Shown piece after piece: positions 11,023 to 64,000 of a stretch of 64,000 nucleotides of DNA. The position numbers and the translations under genes are program-made. This DNA comes from Athalassotoga saccharophila. Lineage in GTDB: Bacteria; Thermotogota; Thermotogae; Mesoaciditogales; Mesoaciditogaceae. The stretch's first letter is position 1, and every line of letters begins with the position of its first letter. The notes under the pieces are model-generated. The model was not told the DNA's origin and searched no databases. It saw only the letters and a program-made list of their open reading frames with translations. Location: assembly GCF_009936215.1 (NCBI RefSeq), contig NZ_AP019551.1, forward strand, positions 1,140,708-1,204,707, read 5' to 3'.

Positions 11023-11808
11023 ATGGAACTTCCGGATGTACAAAGTGAGAGGGACGTAAGAAATGTTTACATAGATAAAGTTGGCGTGAGTGATATAATC
11101 TATCCAATTGTCGTTTTGGATAAGACAAATGATTATCAGAATACCGTTGGAAAGATAAACATGTACGTCGATCTGCCCAAGGACTTCAGGGGTACCCACA
11201 TGAGTAGATTTGTAGAGGTCTTAAACGCTCACATGGGAAAGATGACGATTCAAAATATGGAAAGAATCCTCGATGATATGAAATCAAAACTCAACGCCGA
11301 AGTTTCCCACCTTGAGGTTGAATTCGATTATTTCGTGATGCGTCAGGCACCAATTTCAAAGATATCGAGTTACACGCCTTACAAGGCAAAGTTCATCTCA
11401 AAAAAGGACAAAAATTTCGATTTCATCCTCGAGGTCATCGTACCGGTTCACACTTTGTGTCCATGCTCGAAAGAGATAAGCGAGAGAGGGGCACACAATC
11501 AAAGGGCGAAGGCAGATATATCTGTAAGGATGAACAAAATAGTGTGGATAGAAGATCTCATAGATGTGGCCGAAAGTTCGGCCTCGGCCCCGCTCTTTAC
11601 ACTCTTAAAGCGAGAAGACGAAAAATACGTAACTGAAAGTGCATACGATAATCCCAAATTCGTCGAAGATATAGTGAGAGACATCTCTTTAAAACTCGAA
11701 AGGGATGAAAGAATAACATGGTACAACATAAGAGTTACAAGTTATGAATCAATTCATCCTCACAATGCTTACGCGTGCCACGATCAATGGAAGGAGCTTG
11801 CAAAATGA
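11023..11808 (+). CDS. folE2: GTP cyclohydrolase FolE2 (type IB)
   Basis: Opens the GTP ring to give 7,8-dihydroneopterin triphosphate for folate and related pterins, using a metal other than strictly zinc. At 261 residues it matches the FolE2/MptA family: N-terminal DVQSERDVRNVYIDKVGV, RGTHMSRFVEVLN, and the metal and catalytic region VHTLCPCSKEISERGAHNQR with its active-site cysteine. It supplies the folate used by gcvT. It is the first gene of a long tight plus-strand run, and its TGA overlaps the ATG of amrS. Confidence 0.93.
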   Translation: MELPDVQSERDVRNVYIDKVGVSDIIYPIVVLDKTNDYQNTVGKINMYVDLPKDFRGTHMSRFVEVLNAHMGKMTIQNMERILDDMKSKLNAEVSHLEVEFDYFVMRQAPISKISSYTPYKAKFISKKDKNFDFILEVIVPVHTLCPCSKEISERGAHNQRAKADISVRMNKIVWIEDLIDVAESSASAPLFTLLKREDEKYVTESAYDNPKFVEDIVRDISLKLERDERITWYNIRVTSYESIHPHNAYACHDQWKELAK

Positions 11809-12791
11809 GAGAGGCTCTTTTTTTTGAGGTTTTAAAGGATGATAGGGTAAGATGCGATCTTTGTCCGCACCATTGCGTGTTAAAGGTTGGACAAAGCGGG
11901 ATATGCAACGCGCGCAAAAACATAGACGGGATATTGTACTCTCTCAACTATGGTCAGGTATCCGGTATCTCCATGGATCCGGTCGAAAAAAAGCCTCTTT
12001 TTCATTTCTTTCCGGGCGAAGGAATCCTATCCGTCGGAAGTTGGGGATGCAATATGTCATGCCCTTATTGCCAGAACTGGGAGATATCCCATGCCATTCC
12101 GCGGGTGAGAGAATTTCCTCCGGATCAAATAGCAACGCTTGCAAAGGATCATAAATCTTTTGGAATAGCCTACACATATTCCGAGCCGGTAGTCTGGTTT
12201 GAGTATGTCTTAGATTGTGCCCGCGTTGCGATGAAAGAAGGCCTTCACAACGTGCTTGTAACTAACGGTTTTATAGAGGAAAAACCCTTTAAACTTTTGA
12301 TCCAGTACTTTTCTGCCATGAACATAGACGTTAAATCCTTCAAAGAAGATTATTACAAAAAGGTCCTCGGTGGAAATAGAGACATCGTGATGAAAAATGT
12401 TGAGATGGCTTACAAGGCCGGCATTCATATAGAACTGACAACGCTTGTCGTTCCCGAAGACAACGATTCTGAAGAAGAGATAGAGGGCATAGCGAAATGG
12501 ATAAGCACGATAGACAAATCTATCCCTCTTCATCTTTCAAGATACTTTCCGAATTACAAGTACGATAGACCTCCCACAGATCCCGATAAACTCGAAAATC
12601 TTTGGCATGTTGCCAAAGAGTATCTCGATTACGTCTACATTGGAAATATTCCCGGAATGCATGAAGACACCGTGTGCCCGAAATGCGGTAATCTTGTGAT
12701 AAAACGCAATGGATACAATGTCGAAATAGTAGGTCTTGACAAGGAGGGGAACTGCACAAATTGTGGCCATCACATAGCGATAAGAAAGTGA
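11805..12791 (+). CDS. amrS: AmmeMemoRadiSam system radical SAM enzyme
   Basis: A 328-residue radical SAM protein. An N-terminal cysteine cluster CDLCPHHC precedes the radical SAM triad CNMSCPYC (around residue 85), and a C-terminal zinc ribbon CPKCG ... CTNCG closes the protein. This arrangement is that of AmrS/PflA-like proteins of the AmmeMemoRadiSam system, whose reaction is not established. A Memo partner lies far away at 32.8 kb; the AMMECR1 partner is not in the window. The start at 11805 is set by a GGAAGGAG site and the ATGA overlap with folE2. Confidence 0.9.
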   Translation: MREALFFEVLKDDRVRCDLCPHHCVLKVGQSGICNARKNIDGILYSLNYGQVSGISMDPVEKKPLFHFFPGEGILSVGSWGCNMSCPYCQNWEISHAIPRVREFPPDQIATLAKDHKSFGIAYTYSEPVVWFEYVLDCARVAMKEGLHNVLVTNGFIEEKPFKLLIQYFSAMNIDVKSFKEDYYKKVLGGNRDIVMKNVEMAYKAGIHIELTTLVVPEDNDSEEEIEGIAKWISTIDKSIPLHLSRYFPNYKYDRPPTDPDKLENLWHVAKEYLDYVYIGNIPGMHEDTVCPKCGNLVIKRNGYNVEIVGLDKEGNCTNCGHHIAIRK

Positions 12792-13801
12792 ATTTTTTAT
12801 CGGTCCGTAGCATTTTAATATCTGTTACTCTCATCTTGATCGTTTTGGTCGTGATCTTTGTCGCACTGACAAGAAAGCCTCCTCAGTATTACGTCCAATA
12901 TGGAACGGCGCTTGGAACCAATGTGAAGATCTCTTATGCGACTTCGAAGGGAAATGCAAAAGAGGTAGTCGATCAAATGTTTGCAATCCTCGATAAAGTC
13001 AACGACACTTTCAATCCATGGCTCGTTGGATCCGAACTTTACAATCTCAACCATTCGGACGGGAAGTGGGTCAAGGTAAGTCCACAGTTAATGGATGTTC
13101 TAAAATACTCAATCGCGATTGCCCAAGAAACGAATGGAAGTTTTGATCCAACAATAGGGAGACTTACAGATTTGTGGGGATTTAATTCGACTGATTCGAA
13201 AAAGTGGCATCTGCCATCTGCTTCCGAGATAGCGAATGCATTATCGCATGTGGGGTATCAAAATGTGCAGTTCGACGGAGACAAAGTAAGAATTTTAAAT
13301 GGCGCGTGGATAGATCTTGGTGGAATCGCTAAAGGATATGCAGTTGAACTTTTGGTCAAATTTGCAAAGGAAAATGATCCTTCATCTACAGGCTACGTTG
13401 ACATAGGAGGGGACATAGGAATAATAGGTCCAAAGTATGGGAACCAGCCGTGGAAGATAGGAGTAAGGAATCCCGACGGAGGTCCAAACGATGCTATAAC
13501 CTATGTTGATCTTTACAGTGGTTACATAGCGACTTCTGGTGATTATGAAAGATACATAACCGTGGGAGGAAGGAGATATTACCACATCCTAAATCCAAAG
13601 ACTGGATACTCTCAAAATTATTTCCAGTCAGTCACGTCAATTTCTGACAGCGGGATGCTTTCAGATGCTTTTGGTACGGCCGCCATGGTTTCTGGTCCGA
13701 ATTATTTGAATCAATGGGCAGCCGAAATGGGAGTGGCGTATCTTGCGATAAATAACGGTCAAATGCAATCGAATGAATTGTGGAACGAATATGCCCAGTG
13801 A
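12761..13801 (+). CDS. apbE: FAD:protein FMN transferase ApbE, apparently active copy
   Basis: Membrane-anchored flavin transferase that attaches FMN to Thr or Ser of extracytoplasmic proteins. One N-terminal helix (ILISVTLILIVLVVIFVAL) anchors it outside. Family motifs are intact: GSELYNLNHSDG, DPTIGRLTDLWGF, the signature DLGGIAKGYAVEL (near residue 185), YVDIGGDIGIIG, ATSGDYERY and the metal-binding SDAFGTA. The start is uncertain: TTG at 12761 has AAGGAGGGG upstream, while GTG at 12788 overlaps the amrS stop without a clear site. No FMN-binding target domain is seen in the window. Confidence 0.9.
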   Translation: MWPSHSDKKVNFLSVRSILISVTLILIVLVVIFVALTRKPPQYYVQYGTALGTNVKISYATSKGNAKEVVDQMFAILDKVNDTFNPWLVGSELYNLNHSDGKWVKVSPQLMDVLKYSIAIAQETNGSFDPTIGRLTDLWGFNSTDSKKWHLPSASEIANALSHVGYQNVQFDGDKVRILNGAWIDLGGIAKGYAVELLVKFAKENDPSSTGYVDIGGDIGIIGPKYGNQPWKIGVRNPDGGPNDAITYVDLYSGYIATSGDYERYITVGGRRYYHILNPKTGYSQNYFQSVTSISDSGMLSDAFGTAAMVSGPNYLNQWAAEMGVAYLAINNGQMQSNELWNEYAQ

Positions 13802-14312
13802 ATTAAGCGCAAAAAAGATAACAACTTACGGAATGCTCATAGCCGTTGGCTCGGCCATATACGTTCTCGAAAATTACGCGCCATTTCCAGTGCCGATTCC
13901 GGGCGCGAGATGGGGCTTTTCGAATATGGTCATAGTTTATGCTCTCTCTGATACTCCAATTTCTTGGCTTGTGGTTTTAACCATAGGTAAATCGCTCATA
14001 GGAAGTTTGCTCGGAGGAACCTTCCTTGCGCCAACATTTTTGATGGGATTTTTGGGATCGATTGGCTCAACCTTTGTAATGTATCTTTCATTTTTTGCCA
14101 TGAAAAATCGCACAGGTTTAGTTTTTCATAGCGTTCTTGGCGCTCTAACGAACAATTTTGTTCAGGTTTTGATAGGAGTTCAAATAGTCAACAGTTGGGC
14201 AATAATGTCTTATTTGCCTTACATGGAAATAATAGGTATTCTTTCCGGCATAGCCAATGCGGTGATAGCGGGTGTCCTTGTCAAAAGAGTGAAAAACGAA
14301 AGGAAGATATAG
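13791..14312 (+). CDS. Gx transporter / heptaprenyl diphosphate synthase component I family
   Basis: An integral membrane protein of 173 residues with about five hydrophobic segments. PVPIPGARWGFSNMVIVYAL and GTFLAPTFLMGFLGSIGS are typical of the HepI or Gx transporter family (PF07456 by recollection), whose members often lie with ApbE and NusG-II genes and resemble small-molecule ECF-type S components. The substrate is unknown; a flavin or a quinone precursor is a guess from context. The ATG at 13791 lies inside the end of apbE. It is flanked by two apbE paralogues. Confidence 0.82.
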   Translation: MPSELSAKKITTYGMLIAVGSAIYVLENYAPFPVPIPGARWGFSNMVIVYALSDTPISWLVVLTIGKSLIGSLLGGTFLAPTFLMGFLGSIGSTFVMYLSFFAMKNRTGLVFHSVLGALTNNFVQVLIGVQIVNSWAIMSYLPYMEIIGILSGIANAVIAGVLVKRVKNERKI

Positions 14313-15326
14313 GTGAAAAGAGGAGTCATAATAACGATCTTCACGATTGTCGTGGTTGGAGGGGTTATAAGTGCCATCCTTTTCATAAAACCCGCCCCCA
14401 AATATTACACCCGCTACGGGATCGAACTGGGCACGAATGTTGAAATAACATATGCAACATCTAAGGGTAATGCAAAACAGGTAGTTGACGAAATGTTCAA
14501 AAAATTCAATGATTACGAGGAGATCTTCGATCCATGGCTTGCGGGATCCGAACTTTACAATCTAAATCATTCAGATGGAAAATGGACAAAGGTATCTCCG
14601 GCACTTTTGACGGTCATAAGGGATTCGATTGACTTTGCAAAACTCACGAATGGGAGGTTCGATCCGACAATCGGCAGACTTGTGCCGCTTTGGGGATTCA
14701 ACACTGACAACACAAAGAACTGGCATTTACCCTCTTCTCAGGAGATAAAAGATGCTCTAAAGCACGTGGGTTATCAAAATGTCGAGATAAAAGGAGATGA
14801 GGTAAGGCTTTTGAACGGAGTCTGGCTCGATCTCAATGGCATGATGGAAGGGTACATCGCTCAATTGTTCGTTGAAATGGCAAAGCAAAATGATCCGAAT
14901 TCCACGGGATTTGTTGATATAGGTGGAACGATAGGCATAATTGGCCCAAAGAACGGAAATGAACCTTGGATAGTTGGAATTCAAGATCCGAGAGGCAATC
15001 CCAATCAAGCCATATCGTACGTTAAACTTTACAGCGGATACGTTGGCACCTCTGGAGATTACGAAAGGTACATAATAGTGAATGGTAAGAGATATTACCA
15101 CATATTCGATCCCAAAACCGGATATTCCAACGATTATCTTGAATCTGTCACAACGGTATCGACAAGATCGATATATTCAGATGGCTTTGGCGTTTTCTCA
15201 ATGGTGGCAGGCCAAGAGGCGATGAAAGAAATGGCACAAAAGATAGGCGTTGCGTATTATGCGATAGATGAAAATGGGCAGGTTATAAAGAGTGCAAACT
15301 GGGACGAATATGAATACAAAAAATAA
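14313..15326 (+). CDS. ApbE paralogue with degenerate catalytic motifs
   Basis: A 337-residue sister of the apbE gene 1.5 kb upstream, with the same N-terminal anchor (VIITIFTIVVVGGVISAILF) and shared blocks GSELYNLNHSDGKW, DPTIGRL..LWGFN and TSGDYERY. The family signature DLGGIAKGYA is changed to DLNGMMEGYIA (residues 173-183), and the metal-binding SDAFGTA to SDGFGVF (from residue 289), losing the Thr ligand. It is therefore probably not a working flavin transferase; it may bind flavin or partner the active copy. Its GTG start directly follows the Gx transporter stop, behind AAGGAAG. The frame is open and clearly maintained. Confidence 0.85.
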   Translation: MKRGVIITIFTIVVVGGVISAILFIKPAPKYYTRYGIELGTNVEITYATSKGNAKQVVDEMFKKFNDYEEIFDPWLAGSELYNLNHSDGKWTKVSPALLTVIRDSIDFAKLTNGRFDPTIGRLVPLWGFNTDNTKNWHLPSSQEIKDALKHVGYQNVEIKGDEVRLLNGVWLDLNGMMEGYIAQLFVEMAKQNDPNSTGFVDIGGTIGIIGPKNGNEPWIVGIQDPRGNPNQAISYVKLYSGYVGTSGDYERYIIVNGKRYYHIFDPKTGYSNDYLESVTTVSTRSIYSDGFGVFSMVAGQEAMKEMAQKIGVAYYAIDENGQVIKSANWDEYEYKK

Positions 15327-15723
15327 ATTCTTCTCAAAATGGGATCTTCTTTTGATAACACTTTTAGTCGTCGGTCTGGGAATATGGATAGGAGTTAAAC
15401 AATTCTCTCCGCCGGCGGCAAAGGCGGTTATCCTGCTCGATGGGAAGGTATACAAAGTTATCCCGCTTGACAAGAATGCTTATTACAAAATTTATCGCGG
15501 GGATACTTATCTTATGACCGTTGAAACTAAACCCGGCGCAATAAGGGCGACTTATTCGACGAACTGGATCTTTCCACAAACTGAGACAACTCAAGTTAGC
15601 GTCGCGACGGGATGGATTTCGAAGGAAGGTGAGACCATAATAAGCGTCCCAAATAAGATAGTCATATACACCGAAGGTTCAAAGGAAAAAACTTTGTACG
15701 ATGCGATGACATATCAAAATTAG
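15310..15723 (+). CDS. NusG domain II-like extracytoplasmic protein lacking cysteines
   Basis: A 137-residue protein with one N-terminal membrane helix (WDLLLITLLVVGLGIWIGV) and a small beta domain outside. The segment VSVATGWISKEGETIISVPN followed by KIVIYTEG matches the NusG domain II family (PF07009 by recollection), where the pattern normally reads C..KVCVHTGWIS..GQSIVCLPN. All three usual cysteines are replaced here by Ser or Thr. The start is the ATG at 15310, inside the end of the degenerate apbE. It forms a cassette with the two apbE genes and the transporter. Confidence 0.78.
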   Translation: MNTKNKFFSKWDLLLITLLVVGLGIWIGVKQFSPPAAKAVILLDGKVYKVIPLDKNAYYKIYRGDTYLMTVETKPGAIRATYSTNWIFPQTETTQVSVATGWISKEGETIISVPNKIVIYTEGSKEKTLYDAMTYQN

Positions 15724-15731
15724 GTGATAAG

Positions 15732-16283
15732 ATGATAACACTTGCCTCCTCTTCTCCAAGAAGAAAAGAACTCATAAAGAAGATCTTCAAAGAAGTCGAG
15801 ATAGTCAAGCCCGATGTTGATGAACAGGTAATAGAGGGCGAGAGTGCGATCGAGATGGTCAAAAGGCTTTCTACAATGAAGGCGAATTCTGTAAAGCGAG
15901 ATAACATAATCATAGCGGCAGATACAACCGTAGAAATAGATGAAACTATCCTCGGAAAGCCTTTAGACGAGGAAGATGCTTTCAGGATGATCTCGATGCT
16001 GTCTGGAAGATGGCACAAAGTTCATACCGGCGTCTGCATAAGGTATGGTAGTGAATGTATAAGTTTTGTAGAAACTACAAGAGTAAAGTTTCACGATCTC
16101 GATAGAGAGACGATCGTCAATTACGTAAAGTCCGGAGATCCTATGGACAAAGCCGGGGGGTATGGAGTCCAGGAAAATATGGGAATGGTCCTTGTTGAAA
16201 GAATAGAGGGAGATTTCTTCAACGTTGTGGGACTTCCCATCTCTCGAATATGGTGGGAGTTGAAAGGTAGAAAATGGATTTGA
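15732..16283 (+). CDS. maf: Maf family nucleoside triphosphate pyrophosphatase
   Basis: Hydrolyses non-canonical or excess nucleoside triphosphates (dTTP/UTP type) to monophosphates. The 183 residues start ITLASSSPRRKELIKKIF, the phosphate-binding N-terminal motif of Maf, and contain AADTTVEIDETILGKP, RWHKVHTGVC and DKAGGYGVQ with the conserved Gln. The ATG follows AGGTGAT, 8 nt after the NusG-II-like stop. Maf genes commonly sit among housekeeping neighbours, so no special link to the flavin cassette is implied. Confidence 0.92.
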   Translation: MITLASSSPRRKELIKKIFKEVEIVKPDVDEQVIEGESAIEMVKRLSTMKANSVKRDNIIIAADTTVEIDETILGKPLDEEDAFRMISMLSGRWHKVHTGVCIRYGSECISFVETTRVKFHDLDRETIVNYVKSGDPMDKAGGYGVQENMGMVLVERIEGDFFNVVGLPISRIWWELKGRKWI

Positions 16284-57971: not shown

Positions 57972-58077
57972 TGTATCTCCCTAAGAAAAAGTTTAGACTT
58001 ATGATACCAATATGATACATAGAATGTCACTTTGTATGCAATTGCCAATTTATTAAGAGAGGATTGTAGTTGTATAT

Positions 58078-58105
58078 TTGATCTTCAACTTAGATATGAT
58101 ATAAT
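58078..58105 (+). promoter_or_regulatory. Promoter of the glycan-modification operon
   Basis: TTGATC (58078-58083) and TATAAT (58100-58105), 16-bp spacer, 34 bp before the first gene. The stretch 57972-58077 shows nothing else. Confidence 0.6.
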
Positions 58106-58138
58106 TTTTTTGTTATTGCCAGAAAAGAAGTGATATCA

Positions 58139-58852
58139 ATGGAATTTTCTTTCAACTTTTACAAAGAAGTTCTAAATAAACTAACTGAATTTTTAAAGCC
58201 TTCATTTTTTCAAGATTACTCAGAAAAGGGAAAACTCTTTCTAAGACATGATGTTGATATTTTTGCTGAAAATGTAATAAACATGGCAAAAATTGAAAAC
58301 AACTGCGGAATACATTCCACTTTTTTCTTTCAGCCTAACAATGATTTTTATAACATACTTTCATCAAAAACGGTAACAATAATCGATGAATTGTCACAAA
58401 TGGGTCATCAAATAGGTCTCCATATCGATTCGCCATTTGAAGAATCTGTGGAAGATCTTCAATCAGCGATTGAGAGACTTTACGATTTTTATTCAAAATA
58501 TATACCTCTTACAAATGTCATTTCTTTTCACCATCCACCTCAAAAAGTCATGAATGGTTTTGAGACAGGACCTTTTATAAATGTGTATGGAGACAAATAT
58601 TTCAAACAGATAAGATATTTTTCTGATTCAAAAAGGAGAGAGTTTGCAGATCAATTGTTTTCAAGTTTTGATCAGGATAAAGAAAGGTCAATTCAACTTT
58701 TGACCCATCCTTTCTGGTGGGATCACTTCTCAATGAATTTATGGGAAGCATGGGAGCGTTTTCTCGATGTTAAAAAAGCAGGGTTTAAAGAATCATTGAA
58801 AGAGGGATTCGAACCTTACAGGAATTTTTTTGACGAAAGGTTTGGGAAATGA
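58139..58852 (+). CDS. NodB-like polysaccharide deacetylase family protein
   Basis: A 237-residue protein of the deacetylase TIM-barrel-like fold: LFLRHDVDIFAENVINMAKI holds the metal Asp pair, then IHSTFFFQPNND, MGHQIGLHIDSPFEES with the metal His, VISFHHPPQ and LLTHPFWW near the end. There is no signal peptide, so it acts in the cytoplasm, probably on a nucleotide-linked or lipid-linked sugar. The ATG at 58139 follows AAGAAGTGA. First gene of an AT-rich five-gene operon and 4 nt overlapping the next. Confidence 0.82.
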   Translation: MEFSFNFYKEVLNKLTEFLKPSFFQDYSEKGKLFLRHDVDIFAENVINMAKIENNCGIHSTFFFQPNNDFYNILSSKTVTIIDELSQMGHQIGLHIDSPFEESVEDLQSAIERLYDFYSKYIPLTNVISFHHPPQKVMNGFETGPFINVYGDKYFKQIRYFSDSKRREFADQLFSSFDQDKERSIQLLTHPFWWDHFSMNLWEAWERFLDVKKAGFKESLKEGFEPYRNFFDERFGK

Positions 58853-59856
58853 CAGAGAAGAAATTTACTTTCAATCTAATGAATTTGAAAAGCATAGAGG
58901 GATTACCAAACTTAAACTTTAAAGATATAGAAATATACAACGTTGCTCCTTTTAGTAATCCCCAAAATTGTTCTATGATCTTTTCTAAAAAGTGGATTTC
59001 AGACTCGTCATGGCAGGAAGAGGCCGAAAACAAACTTAAGACATTAAAAGGATGCCTTATAATTTTACCTGTGAATGCTAAGATTAAAAATAAAGAAATC
59101 GAATCGAACAATCAAATTTTGTTGACCGAAAATCCAAGAAAAATTTACGCTATCATACTTCAGTACATATTAGATCACCAGCAAACAGAAAACTTCAAAT
59201 ACACAAAAAGTGAATTAGAATCTGTCATATGCACGAATTCTATCATCGAAGATGGTACAAAAATAGAACCATTTGTTTTCATCGATCACGACGTGAAAAT
59301 AGGTAAAAATTGTCTTATAAGTGCAGGGGCTAAGATAGGACCTTACGTTTCAATTGGAAATAATACTACAATAAGAGAAAATTCAGTTATAGGGAATCCG
59401 GGCTTTGGAATAGAAAGGGATCCAGACGGAACCACTTACAGAATTCCACATCTCGGAGGAGTTAAAATAGGAGACAACGTAGAAATAGGGGCCTTAAGTG
59501 TTGTCGATGCCGGTACAATAGATCCGACCATAATTGAAGATTATGCCAAAATAGACGATCAAACTCATATATCACATAATTGTAAAATAGGAAAAGGTAC
59601 CTTGATAGCATCTGGTGCTACTTTAAGTGGTAGCGTTTCTGTAGGCAAAAATTGCTGGATAGGCCCAAATGTATCTATTGTAAATGGATTAAAAATAGAA
59701 GACGAAGCATGGATTACAATCGGATCTGTTGTCGTTGAAAATGTTAAAAAAGGTCAAAAGGTTACAGGCAATTTTGCCATAGATCATGATTTTTTCGTGA
59801 AACAATATGTGAAAACACTTATGGAAAAAAATAAAGATTCAAAAACTCGGGGGTGA
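58849..59856 (+). CDS. LpxD/NeuD-like left-handed beta-helix acyltransferase
   Basis: A 335-residue protein. The N-terminal 120 residues are an LpxD-like uridine-binding-type domain (KGCLIILPVNAKIKNKEIES), followed by about ten hexapeptide turns (SAGAKIGPYVSIGNNTTIRE, HISHNCKIGKGTLIASGATL, WIGPNVSIVNGLKIEDEAWI) and a C-terminal helix. The HISHN motif contains the catalytic His of LpxD-type enzymes. It likely transfers an acyl group from the ACP of this operon to an amino sugar. True lipid A synthesis is unlikely from a single gene. Confidence 0.85.
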   Translation: MTEKKFTFNLMNLKSIEGLPNLNFKDIEIYNVAPFSNPQNCSMIFSKKWISDSSWQEEAENKLKTLKGCLIILPVNAKIKNKEIESNNQILLTENPRKIYAIILQYILDHQQTENFKYTKSELESVICTNSIIEDGTKIEPFVFIDHDVKIGKNCLISAGAKIGPYVSIGNNTTIRENSVIGNPGFGIERDPDGTTYRIPHLGGVKIGDNVEIGALSVVDAGTIDPTIIEDYAKIDDQTHISHNCKIGKGTLIASGATLSGSVSVGKNCWIGPNVSIVNGLKIEDEAWITIGSVVVENVKKGQKVTGNFAIDHDFFVKQYVKTLMEKNKDSKTRG

Positions 59857-59861
59857 CTTTT

Positions 59862-61496
59862 ATGAAGATCGCTATTTTGTCAAACGTAAATGTTGACAGT
59901 ATGGGCGAAAAATTAAATGACCACTTTCAAGTATACACTCCGCCTGGATTTAACACATGGATAAATGAGATTTCTAACGATAATTCAGGTCTCAATCTTT
60001 TTGATCCGGATGTGGTATTTATTTTAATAGACGGGATAAGTTTATTCCCGGAAACAAGATTTGAAGATGCAATACCAATCATAGATGATCTTATGAGTTT
60101 TATAGGCAAGTATTCCGAAAAAAATTCAAAAAAGAGAATCATAATTTCAAATATAGATGTGAAAGACCCAAGATTAGTGCCATTCAAATATTATAAAGAT
60201 ACATCCCGCATTGAAAATGCCTGGGTTGAAAAAATAAAATCGTTAAACAGAGAAAATATATACATTTTTGATCTTCAAGGACTTATAAGAGACAACGGAA
60301 GAAACTCAATGTACAGTGATAAAGGATGGTATTTCGGCGGCATGAGATTTTCCATGAATGGAGAAAAGATAATCGTTTCTGAAGTCTCGAAGATATTTTT
60401 TGCCTTTAAAGGCGGACAGAAAAAGTGCATAGTGCTTGATCTCGATAACACGCTATGGGGCGGTATAATAGGCGAAGATGGGATAAATGGGATATCATTG
60501 AGTGATGTGAAAGAAGGATCCCAGTACAAAGATTTCCAAAAAAGATTGAAGGATTTGAAGAACATGGGAGTGCTTCTTGCGATAGCGTCCAAAAACAATT
60601 TCGATGATGCAATAGAGGTAATAAGAAACCATCCTCATATGGTTCTCAAAGAAGAAGATTTTGTATCGATGAAGATAAACTGGGATCCCAAATATGTCAA
60701 TATTCAAAAAATAGCGGAAGATTTGAATATAGGTCTGAATTCTATTGTTTTCATAGATGACGATAAATTTGAAAGAGAATCTGTTAAAACTCAATTGCCG
60801 GAAGTAGAAGTACCGGACTTTCCGCAGGATTCAACCATGTTAGCAAAATGGATAACGCAATTGCAAAAAGATTATTTCGAATTTATTGAGGTAACGGAAG
60901 AGGATCTTGAAAAAACAGAAATGTACAAATCTCAGGAAAAAAGAAAGACCCTTTTGGAGCAGAGCGCAAGTTTTGAAGATTACCTTTCCTCTCTTGAAAT
61001 GAAATTAAAAATATGGAATTTGAAAAAAGAAGATCTTCCAAGAGCCGCCCAACTTACTCAAAAGACAAATCAATTCAACGTTACGACAAAAAGATACACG
61101 GAATTTGACCTTGAAAAGATGATGGCAGATCCCAACTTCTCGGTGTACATAGGAAGTGTTGCAGACAAATTCGGAGACAATGGCAAGGTTGTGTTTCTTA
61201 TAGTTAAGAAAGACAAAGATATTGCCTACATTGATACATTCTTAATGAGTTGCAGGGTTATGGGAAGACATATAGAAGATCACGTCATGGATTTTGTCGA
61301 GGAAGAGATGAAAAAGCAAGGCATAAAAAAGATAAGGGCTTCTTACATCCCAACAAAGAAAAACATTTCTGTTAAAAATCTTTGGGATGATCTCGGGTAC
61401 AAAAGAATTTCTGAAGGTCAAAACGGTGAGGTATCTTATGAAATAGATCTTGAAAACAAACCCGAAAGAAAAGTATATTCACAACTGGTGATCTGA
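59862..61496 (+). CDS. FkbH-like HAD-IIIC phosphatase/glyceryltransferase
   Basis: A 544-residue three-part protein: an N-terminal SGNH-hydrolase-like domain (to about 170), a HAD domain with DLDNTLWGGIIGEDG (about 185) and later SIVFIDDDKFERE, and a C-terminal GNAT-like domain (DTFLMSCRVMGRHIEDHVMD). FkbH proteins take 1,3-bisphosphoglycerate, dephosphorylate it and load glyceryl on an ACP. The ACP gene lies two genes downstream. The start was taken at 59862 behind GGGGGTGA; a GTG three codons earlier overlaps that site. Confidence 0.88.
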   Translation: MKIAILSNVNVDSMGEKLNDHFQVYTPPGFNTWINEISNDNSGLNLFDPDVVFILIDGISLFPETRFEDAIPIIDDLMSFIGKYSEKNSKKRIIISNIDVKDPRLVPFKYYKDTSRIENAWVEKIKSLNRENIYIFDLQGLIRDNGRNSMYSDKGWYFGGMRFSMNGEKIIVSEVSKIFFAFKGGQKKCIVLDLDNTLWGGIIGEDGINGISLSDVKEGSQYKDFQKRLKDLKNMGVLLAIASKNNFDDAIEVIRNHPHMVLKEEDFVSMKINWDPKYVNIQKIAEDLNIGLNSIVFIDDDKFERESVKTQLPEVEVPDFPQDSTMLAKWITQLQKDYFEFIEVTEEDLEKTEMYKSQEKRKTLLEQSASFEDYLSSLEMKLKIWNLKKEDLPRAAQLTQKTNQFNVTTKRYTEFDLEKMMADPNFSVYIGSVADKFGDNGKVVFLIVKKDKDIAYIDTFLMSCRVMGRHIEDHVMDFVEEEMKKQGIKKIRASYIPTKKNISVKNLWDDLGYKRISEGQNGEVSYEIDLENKPERKVYSQLVI

Positions 61497-61895
61497 GTGA
61501 ATTTGAAAATTCATCATGTTGGATATGCCGTTGATTCCATAGAAGAAGGAATAAAAACATTTGAAGCACTTGGATTCAAAGTCGATTCGGATACATTCAA
61601 CGATGTCAAAAGAAAAGTTGAAATAGTCTTTATGTCAAAAGGCGAAATGAAAATAGAACTTGTAGCACCTTTAAGCGTTGACTCGCCTGTAAGTAAATTC
61701 TTATCTAAAAATGGACCATCTCCTTATCATATTTGTTACTCAACAGATGATATTTACAAAACTGTAGATAAACTCAAACAATTTAAATTCATACAAATTT
61801 CTGAGATTGAAGAAGCCTTGGCAATTTCAAATAAAAAAGTCGTTTTCATGTATTCAAAGCCGATTGGAATTTTAGAACTTGTAGAAGGAGCATAA
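61497..61895 (+). CDS. VOC-fold protein, methylmalonyl-CoA epimerase-like
   Basis: A 132-residue vicinal-oxygen-chelate protein: LKIHHVGYAVDSIEEGIKTF (metal His), KIELVAPLSVDSPVSKFL (metal Glu), GPSPYHICYSTDDI (metal His) and a final GILELVEG (metal Glu). True epimerases share these residues; in an FkbH/ACP operon it more likely acts on an acyl-ACP intermediate. It begins at GTG directly after the FkbH stop. Confidence 0.88.
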   Translation: MNLKIHHVGYAVDSIEEGIKTFEALGFKVDSDTFNDVKRKVEIVFMSKGEMKIELVAPLSVDSPVSKFLSKNGPSPYHICYSTDDIYKTVDKLKQFKFIQISEIEEALAISNKKVVFMYSKPIGILELVEGA

Positions 61896-61897
61896 AA

Positions 61898-62113
61898 ATG
61901 AAAAAAGAAGAGATAATAAATGTTATAAGCGAAGTCTTAAACAGAAAAGTGGATGAAAATACCAGTAAAGAAGAAATTCAGGAATGGGATTCCCTTAAGC
62001 ACTTACAAATTATAATGGAAATAGAAGAAAGATTTAACGTAGCAATCTCGATAAATGATCTTTCAAAAATAAACTCTGTTAAAGATATCTTGAATATTCT
62101 TAAAATCAGTTAG
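61898..62113 (+). CDS. Acyl carrier protein
   Basis: A 71-residue carrier with the 4'-phosphopantetheine serine in EEIQEWDSLKHLQIIMEIEE. The DSLKHL form, with Lys in place of the usual Val/Leu after the Ser-Leu pair, is typical of dedicated ACPs of FkbH and polysaccharide clusters rather than of fatty acid synthesis. It ends the operon, 2 nt after the VOC gene. Confidence 0.92.
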   Translation: MKKEEIINVISEVLNRKVDENTSKEEIQEWDSLKHLQIIMEIEERFNVAISINDLSKINSVKDILNILKIS

Positions 62114-62137
62114 CATTTCTAAGAATAGTCTTGTATT

Positions 62138-62521
62138 TTATTTTAAATTGGTCAGTTCTTTTAAAGCATTTATTATATTATCAAGCACAACATCACCAGA
62201 AAATCTCTTAGCAGTTTCTGCTATTTTTTCTGGTGTCTCGAATTTAAGTTTACCATCTATAACATCATTAACAATCTTTACAAACGCATTCATATCTCCT
62301 TCAGGATAAAGATAGCCATTTATATCTTTGATAACTATATCAGAAGGTCCTACTTCACAATCAGATGAAATAACAGGTATTCCCCTTTGGTTTGCCTCTG
62401 CTAATACCATTCCGAATCCTTCAAATCTTGATGTTAAAAGCAATGCAGTTACTCCTTCATCTAAATTCTCGTAAGGATCTTTTTTAAATCCCCTCCATTC
62501 TATTCTTTGAGATGAGTAAAT
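62138..62521 (-). pseudogene. C-terminal fragment of a GT4 glycosyltransferase
   Basis: A truncated gene. The readable frame on the minus strand begins at the edge of the IS element with RIEWRGFKKDPYENLDEG, then ALLLTSRFEGFGMVLAEANQ and GIPVISSDCEVGPSDIVIKD, the donor-binding EX7E region of family 4 glycosyltransferases, and ends with a helix. About 230 N-terminal residues are missing; a stop codon at 62522-62524 closes the frame at the junction. It converges on the ACP gene. It may once have served the neighbouring glycan cluster. Confidence 0.82.
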
Positions 62522-62524
62522 TCA

Positions 62525-63900
62525 ATTTTGAAACTTCTTGCTATTCCTCAATTCTTTTTTTGCCCTCACCCCACAACAACCTGTCATCAGGGTGTAAAAT
62601 TTTTTTGTCCCAAAAATTCTTTCAACCGAGGTGACAGGTATGTTGCGGAGCTCTTCAGATGTGTTTCTTTTCAAATTTCCTTCTTCAGACACTGTTTTTA
62701 ATCTCGTATTCTTTACTTTTCAGCAAATGAACTTTGACTCCATTTCTTCAGAACTCCTTCGGTCTTATTCTCCCATTCAAAATAAGAATCGTCCTTATGA
62801 CCCTTCTTCTTTGCTCAGACTCTTTTTCATCTTAAATCTTTTCAATTTGGAATATGACTTTTACAAATCGAAGCGCATTGATTCTGTCCTGCCTCGCAAT
62901 TACCTCTATCTTTGTGGTTTCTCAGATCAATTCCCCTGCTATACAACTTATTTTTATTTCAAGCAGCGCTTTGATTTCCCTGTCCTTTTCCAATACCTTA
63001 ACTTGTTTCTTGTACTCTTTCTTAACTCCATAATCTCTTCTTTCAAAGACGAAATCAATGATTCTGACGGCCTTGTTATTGCGGCCGATTCGAAACCTAT
63101 CGCCGCTTACGGCAATGTCCCCCTCGGACCCATTCATTCTTACAATAAAACTCTCAACGGCAAGTTTGGCTTCAAAGTCTTCTGGTTAGCGGTTGTTTAT
63201 CCTTTTTATTTTCCCTTCTACTTCTCTTTTGACAAAGCCTCTGCACATGATAACCCTATGCTTTTGAATTCGTTTAAGTATCTCAAATTACTTGACGTCA
63301 AAACTTCCAACATCTTTTTTACCGCTGACAAAGGCTTCGATTCACTCGAGACGTTTTACAAACTTATCTCTGCCGGCTTTATCCCTTTCATTAAAACAAA
63401 AAAGTTTCATCTCAAAGATCATTTCTATCTTCAAAACGTCAATATCTTCTGTAAAGTCTCAAATAAAAAATTATTGTCTGAAGGAAACGACTATTCAAAA
63501 CATCGCCACAAGTTCTTCTGTCACAACAGAACTGCTTTATGCCCTAAAAATTGTTCTGGTATCTTTTGGATGAAATACACACCTGAATTATCTCTTTTCA
63601 GACTTTCATTCCAGACCAACCCATCTTTTAAACAGTTCTACAACTTCAGACCGAGAATTGAAACTCTTAACTCTTCCCTCACAAGATGGTTTAATCTGAA
63701 AAATGTAATCTATTTCCCAAGCATCGGCGCTTACGATAGATTCAAATTGAAACTTATTTCAAAAACGATTAGCCATTATACTTTCGAATCTAACGTTTCT
63801 TTTCTTAAAAGGCTGAAAGGAGAAACTCATGACAGAAAACGTATTTGTTTAAATCCAAAATTTGCTTTTCAAAGATCCTGAACGTATTCAGACTCAATCT
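62525..63900 (+). mobile_element. IS4-like insertion sequence, limits approximate
   Basis: Begins near the point where the glycosyltransferase frame is lost and contains one transposase gene. I could not recognise terminal inverted repeats; the right end may be beyond 63900 or outside the window. The base composition is rich in T on the plus strand. Confidence 0.6.
62640..63881 (+). CDS. DDE transposase, IS4-like
   Basis: A 413-residue transposase with the catalytic triad in AADSKPIAAYGN (D), FFTADKGFDS (D) and FRPRIETLNSSL (E); the last fits the Y-(2)-R-(3)-E signature of IS4-type elements (YNFRPRIE). It is very rich in Phe and Tyr. The ATG at 62640 follows GAGGTGA; GTG at 62631 would overlap that site. 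The frame is complete, so the element may still be active. Confidence 0.88.
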   Translation: MLRSSSDVFLFKFPSSDTVFNLVFFTFQQMNFDSISSELLRSYSPIQNKNRPYDPSSLLRLFFILNLFNLEYDFYKSKRIDSVLPRNYLYLCGFSDQFPCYTTYFYFKQRFDFPVLFQYLNLFLVLFLNSIISSFKDEINDSDGLVIAADSKPIAAYGNVPLGPIHSYNKTLNGKFGFKVFWLAVVYPFYFPFYFSFDKASAHDNPMLLNSFKYLKLLDVKTSNIFFTADKGFDSLETFYKLISAGFIPFIKTKKFHLKDHFYLQNVNIFCKVSNKKLLSEGNDYSKHRHKFFCHNRTALCPKNCSGIFWMKYTPELSLFRLSFQTNPSFKQFYNFRPRIETLNSSLTRWFNLKNVIYFPSIGAYDRFKLKLISKTISHYTFESNVSFLKRLKGETHDRKRICLNPKFAFQRS

Positions 63901-64000
63901 CATCTGCAATGTCTGAATGCATCCTTCTGTATGATGCATTTTGATTCTGCAACTGTTCTTCTGTATCTTCCTCTGTTTTTAAAAGACCATGTATTGGGGT
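63882..64000. other. Window end after the transposase
   Basis: The last 119 bp have no supported gene. They may hold the right end of the insertion sequence and, further on, the missing part of the glycosyltransferase gene. Confidence 0.3.

Follow-up and report, generated by a model that had tools for sequence, protein, structure and literature searches.

In Listeria, the transporter EetB (PF07456) exports flavin adenine dinucleotide (FAD) for the ApbE-type flavin transferase FmnB; eetB adjoins apbE in 2,169 genomes, often together with Rnf genes, and deletion of eetA gave no phenotype, as stated in the accessible part of PMC9973259. For the transferases themselves, the accessible text of PMC4767422 assigns to E. 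coli ApbE a first metal site formed by D280, the T166 backbone, T284 and, in the apo form, D283, and a second one with E169, and that of PMC8906456 gives D301, S257, H273, R262 and K190, together with the metal ligands, as the active residues of FmnB. The locus studied here belongs to the hot-spring bacterium Athalassotoga saccharophila, whose genome comprises three contigs and 2,044,999 bases in all, and lies in a 64,000-nucleotide stretch of contig NZ_AP019551.1 (hereafter, the window). It carries two ApbE genes, ApbE1 and ApbE2, flanking the gene of a Gx/EetB-type transporter component and followed by that of a NusG_II protein (PF07009), and this adjacency of ApbE, NusG_II and PF07456 genes is that of an EetB/NusG_II/ApbE FAD-trafficking cassette. 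The pair around the transporter, with an ApbE2 frame open over 337 codons, had been described in the original prediction, made from the sequence of this stretch, and was found as described.

Both proteins matched the whole ApbE domain of Pfam (curated cut-off of 25.6 bits; scores in Table 1), with around 58% identity between them, and the motifs first quoted for them were confirmed: DLGGIAKGYA and SDAFGTA in ApbE1, DLNGMMEGYIA and SDGFGVF in ApbE2. The comparison was based on 95 ApbE sequences from 90 loci of 89 Thermotogota genomes. From these, five ApbE2 sequences and the ApbE1 of genome G009 were set apart, leaving a reference set of 89, to which 40 ApbEs from outside Thermotogota were added as an outgroup, taken among the best-scoring profile matches and thus biased to canonical sequences. 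The five ApbE2 copies come from the five genomes carrying the tandem: A. saccharophila, G001, G002 and G003, all of one genus, and G009, of the same family and another genus. ApbE1 of A. saccharophila showed none of 44 possible departures at positions conserved in at least 95% of the reference set. ApbE2 departed at two of the 27 invariant positions, K179E and T294V, identically in the five tandem genomes. All 89 Thermotogota reference sequences and all 40 outgroup ApbEs have Lys at position 179, against Glu in all five ApbE2; position 294 is Thr in the 89 Thermotogota sequences (37 Thr, two Ser and one Lys in the outgroup) and Val in every ApbE2. At position 206, also belonging to metal site 1, where the reference set has Asp (74), Gln (10), Glu (4) or Asn (1), Thr was found in the five ApbE2, and also in two of the 40 outgroup sequences. 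Aligned with the E. coli enzyme, T284 becomes Val294, D280 is kept as Asp290, T166, a backbone ligand, becomes Gly176, and E169 corresponds to Glu179. In total, 20 residues were fixed in ApbE2 and rare elsewhere, half of them (10) no more than three residues away from 12 active-site positions taken from the literature, against a background of 51 in 313 (hypergeometric P = 0.0003), and bulky or hydrophobic residues (M178, I182, V294, F295) surround its metal site 1. Since this signature recurs in all five tandem genomes, we take it to be neither chance nor sequencing error.

Apart from these changes, ApbE2 conserves the rest, as had been claimed: 43 of the 51 positions conserved in at least 90% of the reference sequences and 25 of the 27 invariant sites are retained. 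His263, Ser247, Thr246, Glu251, Arg252, Asp173 and Asp290 are present in the five copies, and F129, which belongs with them to the FAD-pocket and catalytic residues, is kept in ApbE2; H263, S247 and D290 correspond to the catalytic H273, S257 and D301 of FmnB and, for the His, to H257 of the Vc enzyme. All the active residues of FmnB are present in ApbE2 except K190 and the Thr adjoining S304. The original wording, that ApbE2 had lost its catalytic signature, is hence right for the surroundings of the metal site (K179E, T294V) but too strong for a protein that keeps the His, Ser, Arg and Asp. In addition, the Glu of its EGY motif, which lies in the stretch first quoted, does not by itself amount to a loss: position 179 is Lys in most active ApbEs, but the active ApbE of E. 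coli natively has Glu, as does that of Salmonella. As Glu is the E. coli state, Glu179 should not be read as a loss, and the change was ruled out as a mark of inactivity.

Selection was measured as the ratio of nonsynonymous to synonymous substitution rates (dN/dS) on the two pairs with usable dS, A. saccharophila-G003 and G001-G002, several of the other pairs being saturated. ApbE2 gave 0.053 and 0.057 with the NG86 method and 0.070 and 0.068 with YN00, and ApbE1 gave 0.041 and 0.067 (NG86) and 0.066 and 0.135 (YN00), with neighbouring genes between 0.025 and 0.124 (NG86). ApbE2 is under purifying selection, constrained no less than ApbE1, so the proposal of a maintained copy stood, with no relaxed selection. 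These results point to ApbE2 as a maintained paralogue that was probably re-tooled rather than degraded.

AlphaFold models of each protein, proposed with the original prediction, gave a folded ApbE2 with a predicted local distance difference test (pLDDT) score of 93.6 and the ApbE fold. The closest structure in the PDB was T. maritima ApbE (1vrm, template modelling scores of 0.86/0.94), followed by FmnB bound to FAD, ADP, AMP or ATP. In these ligand-free models, a helix starts at residue 175 in ApbE2 versus 178 in ApbE1, a faint hint that ApbE2 may have ceased to present the backbone of residue 176 as a metal ligand.

The tandem was also sought in related genomes, as had been suggested, and it was found in five, with the same signature in each. 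It is carried by the four genomes of the genus of A. saccharophila and by one (G009) of the six others of the family. Among the 90 Thermotogota loci, 58 had the order ApbE-NusG_II-Gx, five the order ApbE1-Gx-ApbE2-NusG_II, and one ApbE-Gx, the remaining 26 being devoid of either neighbour in the stretch examined. No adjacent pair of intact ApbE genes was found among the other 93 genomes of the phylum, G018 having two copies on different contigs, and G010 and G073 split or broken copies; three ApbEs were found in no genome of the family. A search for ApbE2 relatives in named genomes returned only G001, G002, G003 and G009, and none in viral contigs. The set covers 89 of the 102 genomes of the phylum that had a match; the other thirteen (G010, G012, G025, G029, G033, G045, G066, G069, G071, G072, G073, G088 and G095), several of them truncated, and distant second paralogues in G011, G017, G023, G061 and G078, where degenerate copies could occur, lie outside it. 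In the tree, ApbE2 stood beside the ApbE1 of the genus of A. saccharophila (98/99), an alternative with a clade of all other ApbEs of the family not being rejected (approximately unbiased test, p = 0.155), and trees from the N-terminal and C-terminal halves agreed. This suggests the duplication of an ApbE-NusG_II-Gx cassette, followed by the loss of NusG_II from the first copy and of Gx from the second, which would leave the order ApbE1-Gx-ApbE2-NusG_II.

The NusG_II protein of the tandem, to whose family (PF07009) EetA presumably belongs, has also changed. Three Cys residues present in the 58 other Thermotogota homologues are all replaced in the five tandem genomes, a change that the original prediction did not mention. 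The NusG_II proteins of these genomes form one clade, separate from the others of the family (100/99), and, as only one NusG_II match was obtained in each of the ten genomes of the family, the tandem genomes showed no further copy with the Cys residues. The triad is not universal outside Thermotogota, as, within the part that aligns, the second Cys at least is missing from the Lin0431 chain of Listeria innocua. The changes in ApbE2 and in NusG_II each correspond to a single event in one lineage; that they are linked is what we infer from their coincidence and shared history.

Genome G009 presented a mosaic locus. Its ApbE1 and AmmeMemoRadiSam genes group with those of its own genus (G006, G008) by trees and identities, FolE2 does likewise by identity alone, and its FeoA fragment is 97% identical to that of G005 and 60% to that of A. 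saccharophila. In the case of Gx, the clade of the genus of A. saccharophila excludes G009, the grouping with G006/G008 itself not being resolved. In contrast, ApbE2, NusG_II and Maf, located between genes of another lineage (L034, 444-2424), group in trees with the genus of A. saccharophila. As the flanking genes side with one genus and this block with the other, the block looks to have moved horizontally into G009. The ApbE1 of this genome (L034, 2997-4010) carries Y250H, R252K, D290N, T294M and G222S, which is five departures in 44, compared with none or one in the other non-ApbE2 copies of the family. Nevertheless, G009 has RnfC, RnfD and RnfG with intact flavinylation motifs, and no third ApbE was found, the hit on contig C192 (E 0.44) falling short of significance. 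Either ApbE2, or the altered ApbE1, or a gene in the missing 13% of the assembly would thus flavinylate Rnf in G009. The loss of active-site residues from ApbE1 in a genome with intact Rnf acceptors argues that flavin transfer by ApbE2 may persist.

As for the acceptors, a single FMN_bind (PF04205) match, RnfG, and a single NQR2/RnfD (PF03116) match, RnfD, were detected in the A. saccharophila genome. RnfG has the motif D-V-M-T-G-A-T, of the acceptor form D-x-x-S/T-G-A-T/S, and RnfD has T-T-A-T; these would serve ApbE1 in common and are not specific to ApbE2. In RnfD, the motif is D-V/M-A-T-T-A-T in the three genomes read of the genus (L060, 4594-5613), whereas the family's other genomes, G009 included, have N, S or H at the place of the Asp. 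Genome G002, 96% complete and with both ApbEs, showed no FMN_bind or NQR2/RnfD match, and Rnf was not found in it, by assembly gap or by loss. A missing acceptor was discarded as an explanation for ApbE2, given that RnfG and RnfD are the only matches and that the presence of the tandem is not mirrored in their motifs. Since EetB exports FAD beside apbE and RnfG and RnfD are the sole family matches, we read the locus as a putative unit that supplies FAD and attaches flavin to Rnf, in which a canonical ApbE with two metals works beside a re-tooled one.

The function that we tentatively favour for ApbE2, at somewhat below even probability, is that of a flavin transferase relying on metal 2 only and acting on Rnf acceptors. 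ApbE2 would receive FAD from the Gx transporter and bind it on the outer side of the membrane, would work chiefly through its second metal site (Glu179), and would serve the same acceptors as ApbE1, RnfG and RnfD. Such a one-metal enzyme would probably be slower or differently controlled, with the Cys-less NusG_II as its partner. Several observations weigh against it. Val at position 294, where the metal-1 Thr ligand is expected, was found in none of the 129 other ApbEs, 128 of which have Thr or Ser, and E. coli ApbE, which bears the Glu, retains the Thr ligand. In FmnB, alanine at the metal ligands strongly lowered or abolished activity, and K190A, which falls where ApbE2 has E179, eliminated it (PMC8906456, accessible part, where alanine at R262 or H273 had the same effect). 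ApbE1 is near-pristine in the four genomes of the genus of A. saccharophila (none or one departure in 44), so that ApbE2 does not merely stand in for it in that genus; G009 is a single metagenome-assembled genome, 87% complete; and the predicted structure of ApbE2 holds neither FAD nor metal.

Much of this would agree with a serious, if not preferred, possibility, in which ApbE2 does no catalysis but binds FAD or flavin as a partner, either holding or passing on the FAD that is exported or regulating ApbE1, with transfer blocked because metal site 1 is dismantled. The loss of two otherwise invariant active-site residues in the five copies, the hydrophobic residues around the metal site, the earlier predicted helix start, with which the backbone ligand at 176 may not be free, the sensitivity of FmnB to mutation in the same region, and a protein held by selection next to a pristine ApbE1 in the genus of A. 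saccharophila all fit a binding role. However, all five copies keep the His, Ser, Arg and Asp that are reported to be catalytic, Glu179 is native to an active enzyme, and in G009 it is ApbE1 that has the active-site losses, with Rnf intact. We regard as unlikely an obligate heteromer of ApbE1, ApbE2 and NusG_II with a split function, in which the Cys triad and a second full metal site would be dispensable. The genes overlap or touch as one set, ApbE2 and NusG_II were altered in the same lineage, with the G009 copies sharing the history of those of the genus, and some crystal ApbEs are dimeric or tetrameric, but T. maritima ApbE is given as a monomer (both in the accessible part of PMC12052999). 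Equally doubtful is a broader proposal, prompted by the matched losses of metal site 1 and the Cys triad: the EetA-like NusG_II might normally act on the ApbE metal site, for instance as metal donor or redox switch, and ApbE2-NusG_II could be the first pair for flavinylation to have escaped this control, its transferase working with one metal and capable of taking the place of ApbE1, a replacement that may already have happened in G009. Finally, a decaying duplicate heading to a pseudogene, which the missing metal ligand, invariant elsewhere, might evoke, is most improbable and was rejected on its dN/dS of about 0.05-0.07, the gene being intact in five of five genomes, with both of its changes at invariant sites identical everywhere, and having apparently moved into G009 as part of a block.

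The genes follow each other on the + strand in the order FolE2, AmmeMemoRadiSam radical SAM enzyme, ApbE1, Gx, ApbE2, NusG_II, Maf and FeoA, adjacent frames overlapping or abutting from 11023 to 15723 (Table 1); a frame of 638 amino acids after FeoA is presumably FeoB. The GTG at 12788 is the probable start of ApbE1, rather than the TTG at 12761 chosen originally, because the residues upstream of 12788 align poorly with relatives. The last part of the window (58000-64000), possibly a foreign segment, has a G+C content that drops from around 0.42 to 0.33-0.35.

Table 1. Features of the ApbE tandem locus and its surroundings, in window coordinates.
Feature	Position	Strand	Basis or remark
FolE2 GTP cyclohydrolase, upstream neighbour	11023..11808	+	PF02649
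AmmeMemoRadiSam-system radical SAM enzyme, upstream neighbour	11802..12791	+	TIGR04337, 315.7 bits
ApbE1, canonical FAD:protein FMN (flavin mononucleotide) transferase, N-terminal membrane anchor	12788..13801	+	PF02424, 246 bits
Gx/EetB-type ECF-S (energy-coupling factor, S component) flavin transporter component	13791..14312 (open frame from 13773)	+	PF07456, 112 bits
ApbE2, paralogue changed at metal site 1	14313..15326	+	PF02424, 225 bits; 337 amino acids, GTG start
ApbE2 residues 173-182 (DLNGMMEGYI)	14829..14858	+	Lys179 to Glu, codon 14847-14849
ApbE2 residue 206, Thr	14928..14930	+	elsewhere Asp/Asn/Gln/Glu; equivalent to Listeria FmnB Asn216
ApbE2 residue 294, Val replacing the metal-1 ligand Thr	15192..15194	+	alignment
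NusG_II protein, membrane-anchored, copy-2 lineage	15310..15723 (open frame from 15292)	+	PF07009, 60.8 bits; tree
NusG_II stretch with the three otherwise invariant Cys changed to N, S, S	15562..15645	+	alignment
Maf	15732..16283	+	PF02545; travels with ApbE2-NusG_II in G009 (Maf tree)

A degenerate or pseudo-ApbE was found in no publication of a literature search that left most subscription papers out of reach, nor was any match found in it for an ApbE with a Gx transporter; the accessible part of the review PMC12052999 does not contain the words "inactive" or "paralog", and PMC11334425 does not contain "paralog", "two ApbE" or NusG. What the two metal sites of ApbE do, and what the small NusG_II/EetA protein does, could be tested with few proteins on a natural ApbE kept by selection with its metal site 1 dismantled, which a type strain available in culture carries beside a canonical sister and a NusG_II lacking its Cys triad.

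Compared with the ApbE, Ftp and FmnB transferases (PF02424; 1vrm, 7esa, 4ifu, 4xgv), ApbE2 shares the fold, the FAD-pocket residues, the catalytic His, Ser, Arg and Asp, the N-terminal membrane anchor and an FAD-export neighbour, but differs in the change of the metal-1 Thr to Val, of Lys179 to Glu and of Asp/Asn206 to Thr, and in its position beside a canonical copy. With the E. coli and Salmonella subclass, it has in common the Glu at the Lys179 position, a metal-2 ligand; in contrast, E. coli ApbE has Thr284 and Asp283 at metal 1, where ApbE2 has Val294 and Gly293. At the level of the locus, the EetB-EetA-ApbE clusters described for Listeria extracellular electron transfer and clostridial Rnf, in the accessible part of PMC9973259, likewise occur in genomes with Rnf and combine an ApbE, an EetB homologue (PF07456) and a small protein anchored in the membrane, whereas the A. 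saccharophila locus has two ApbEs, a rearranged order and a NusG_II without its three Cys.

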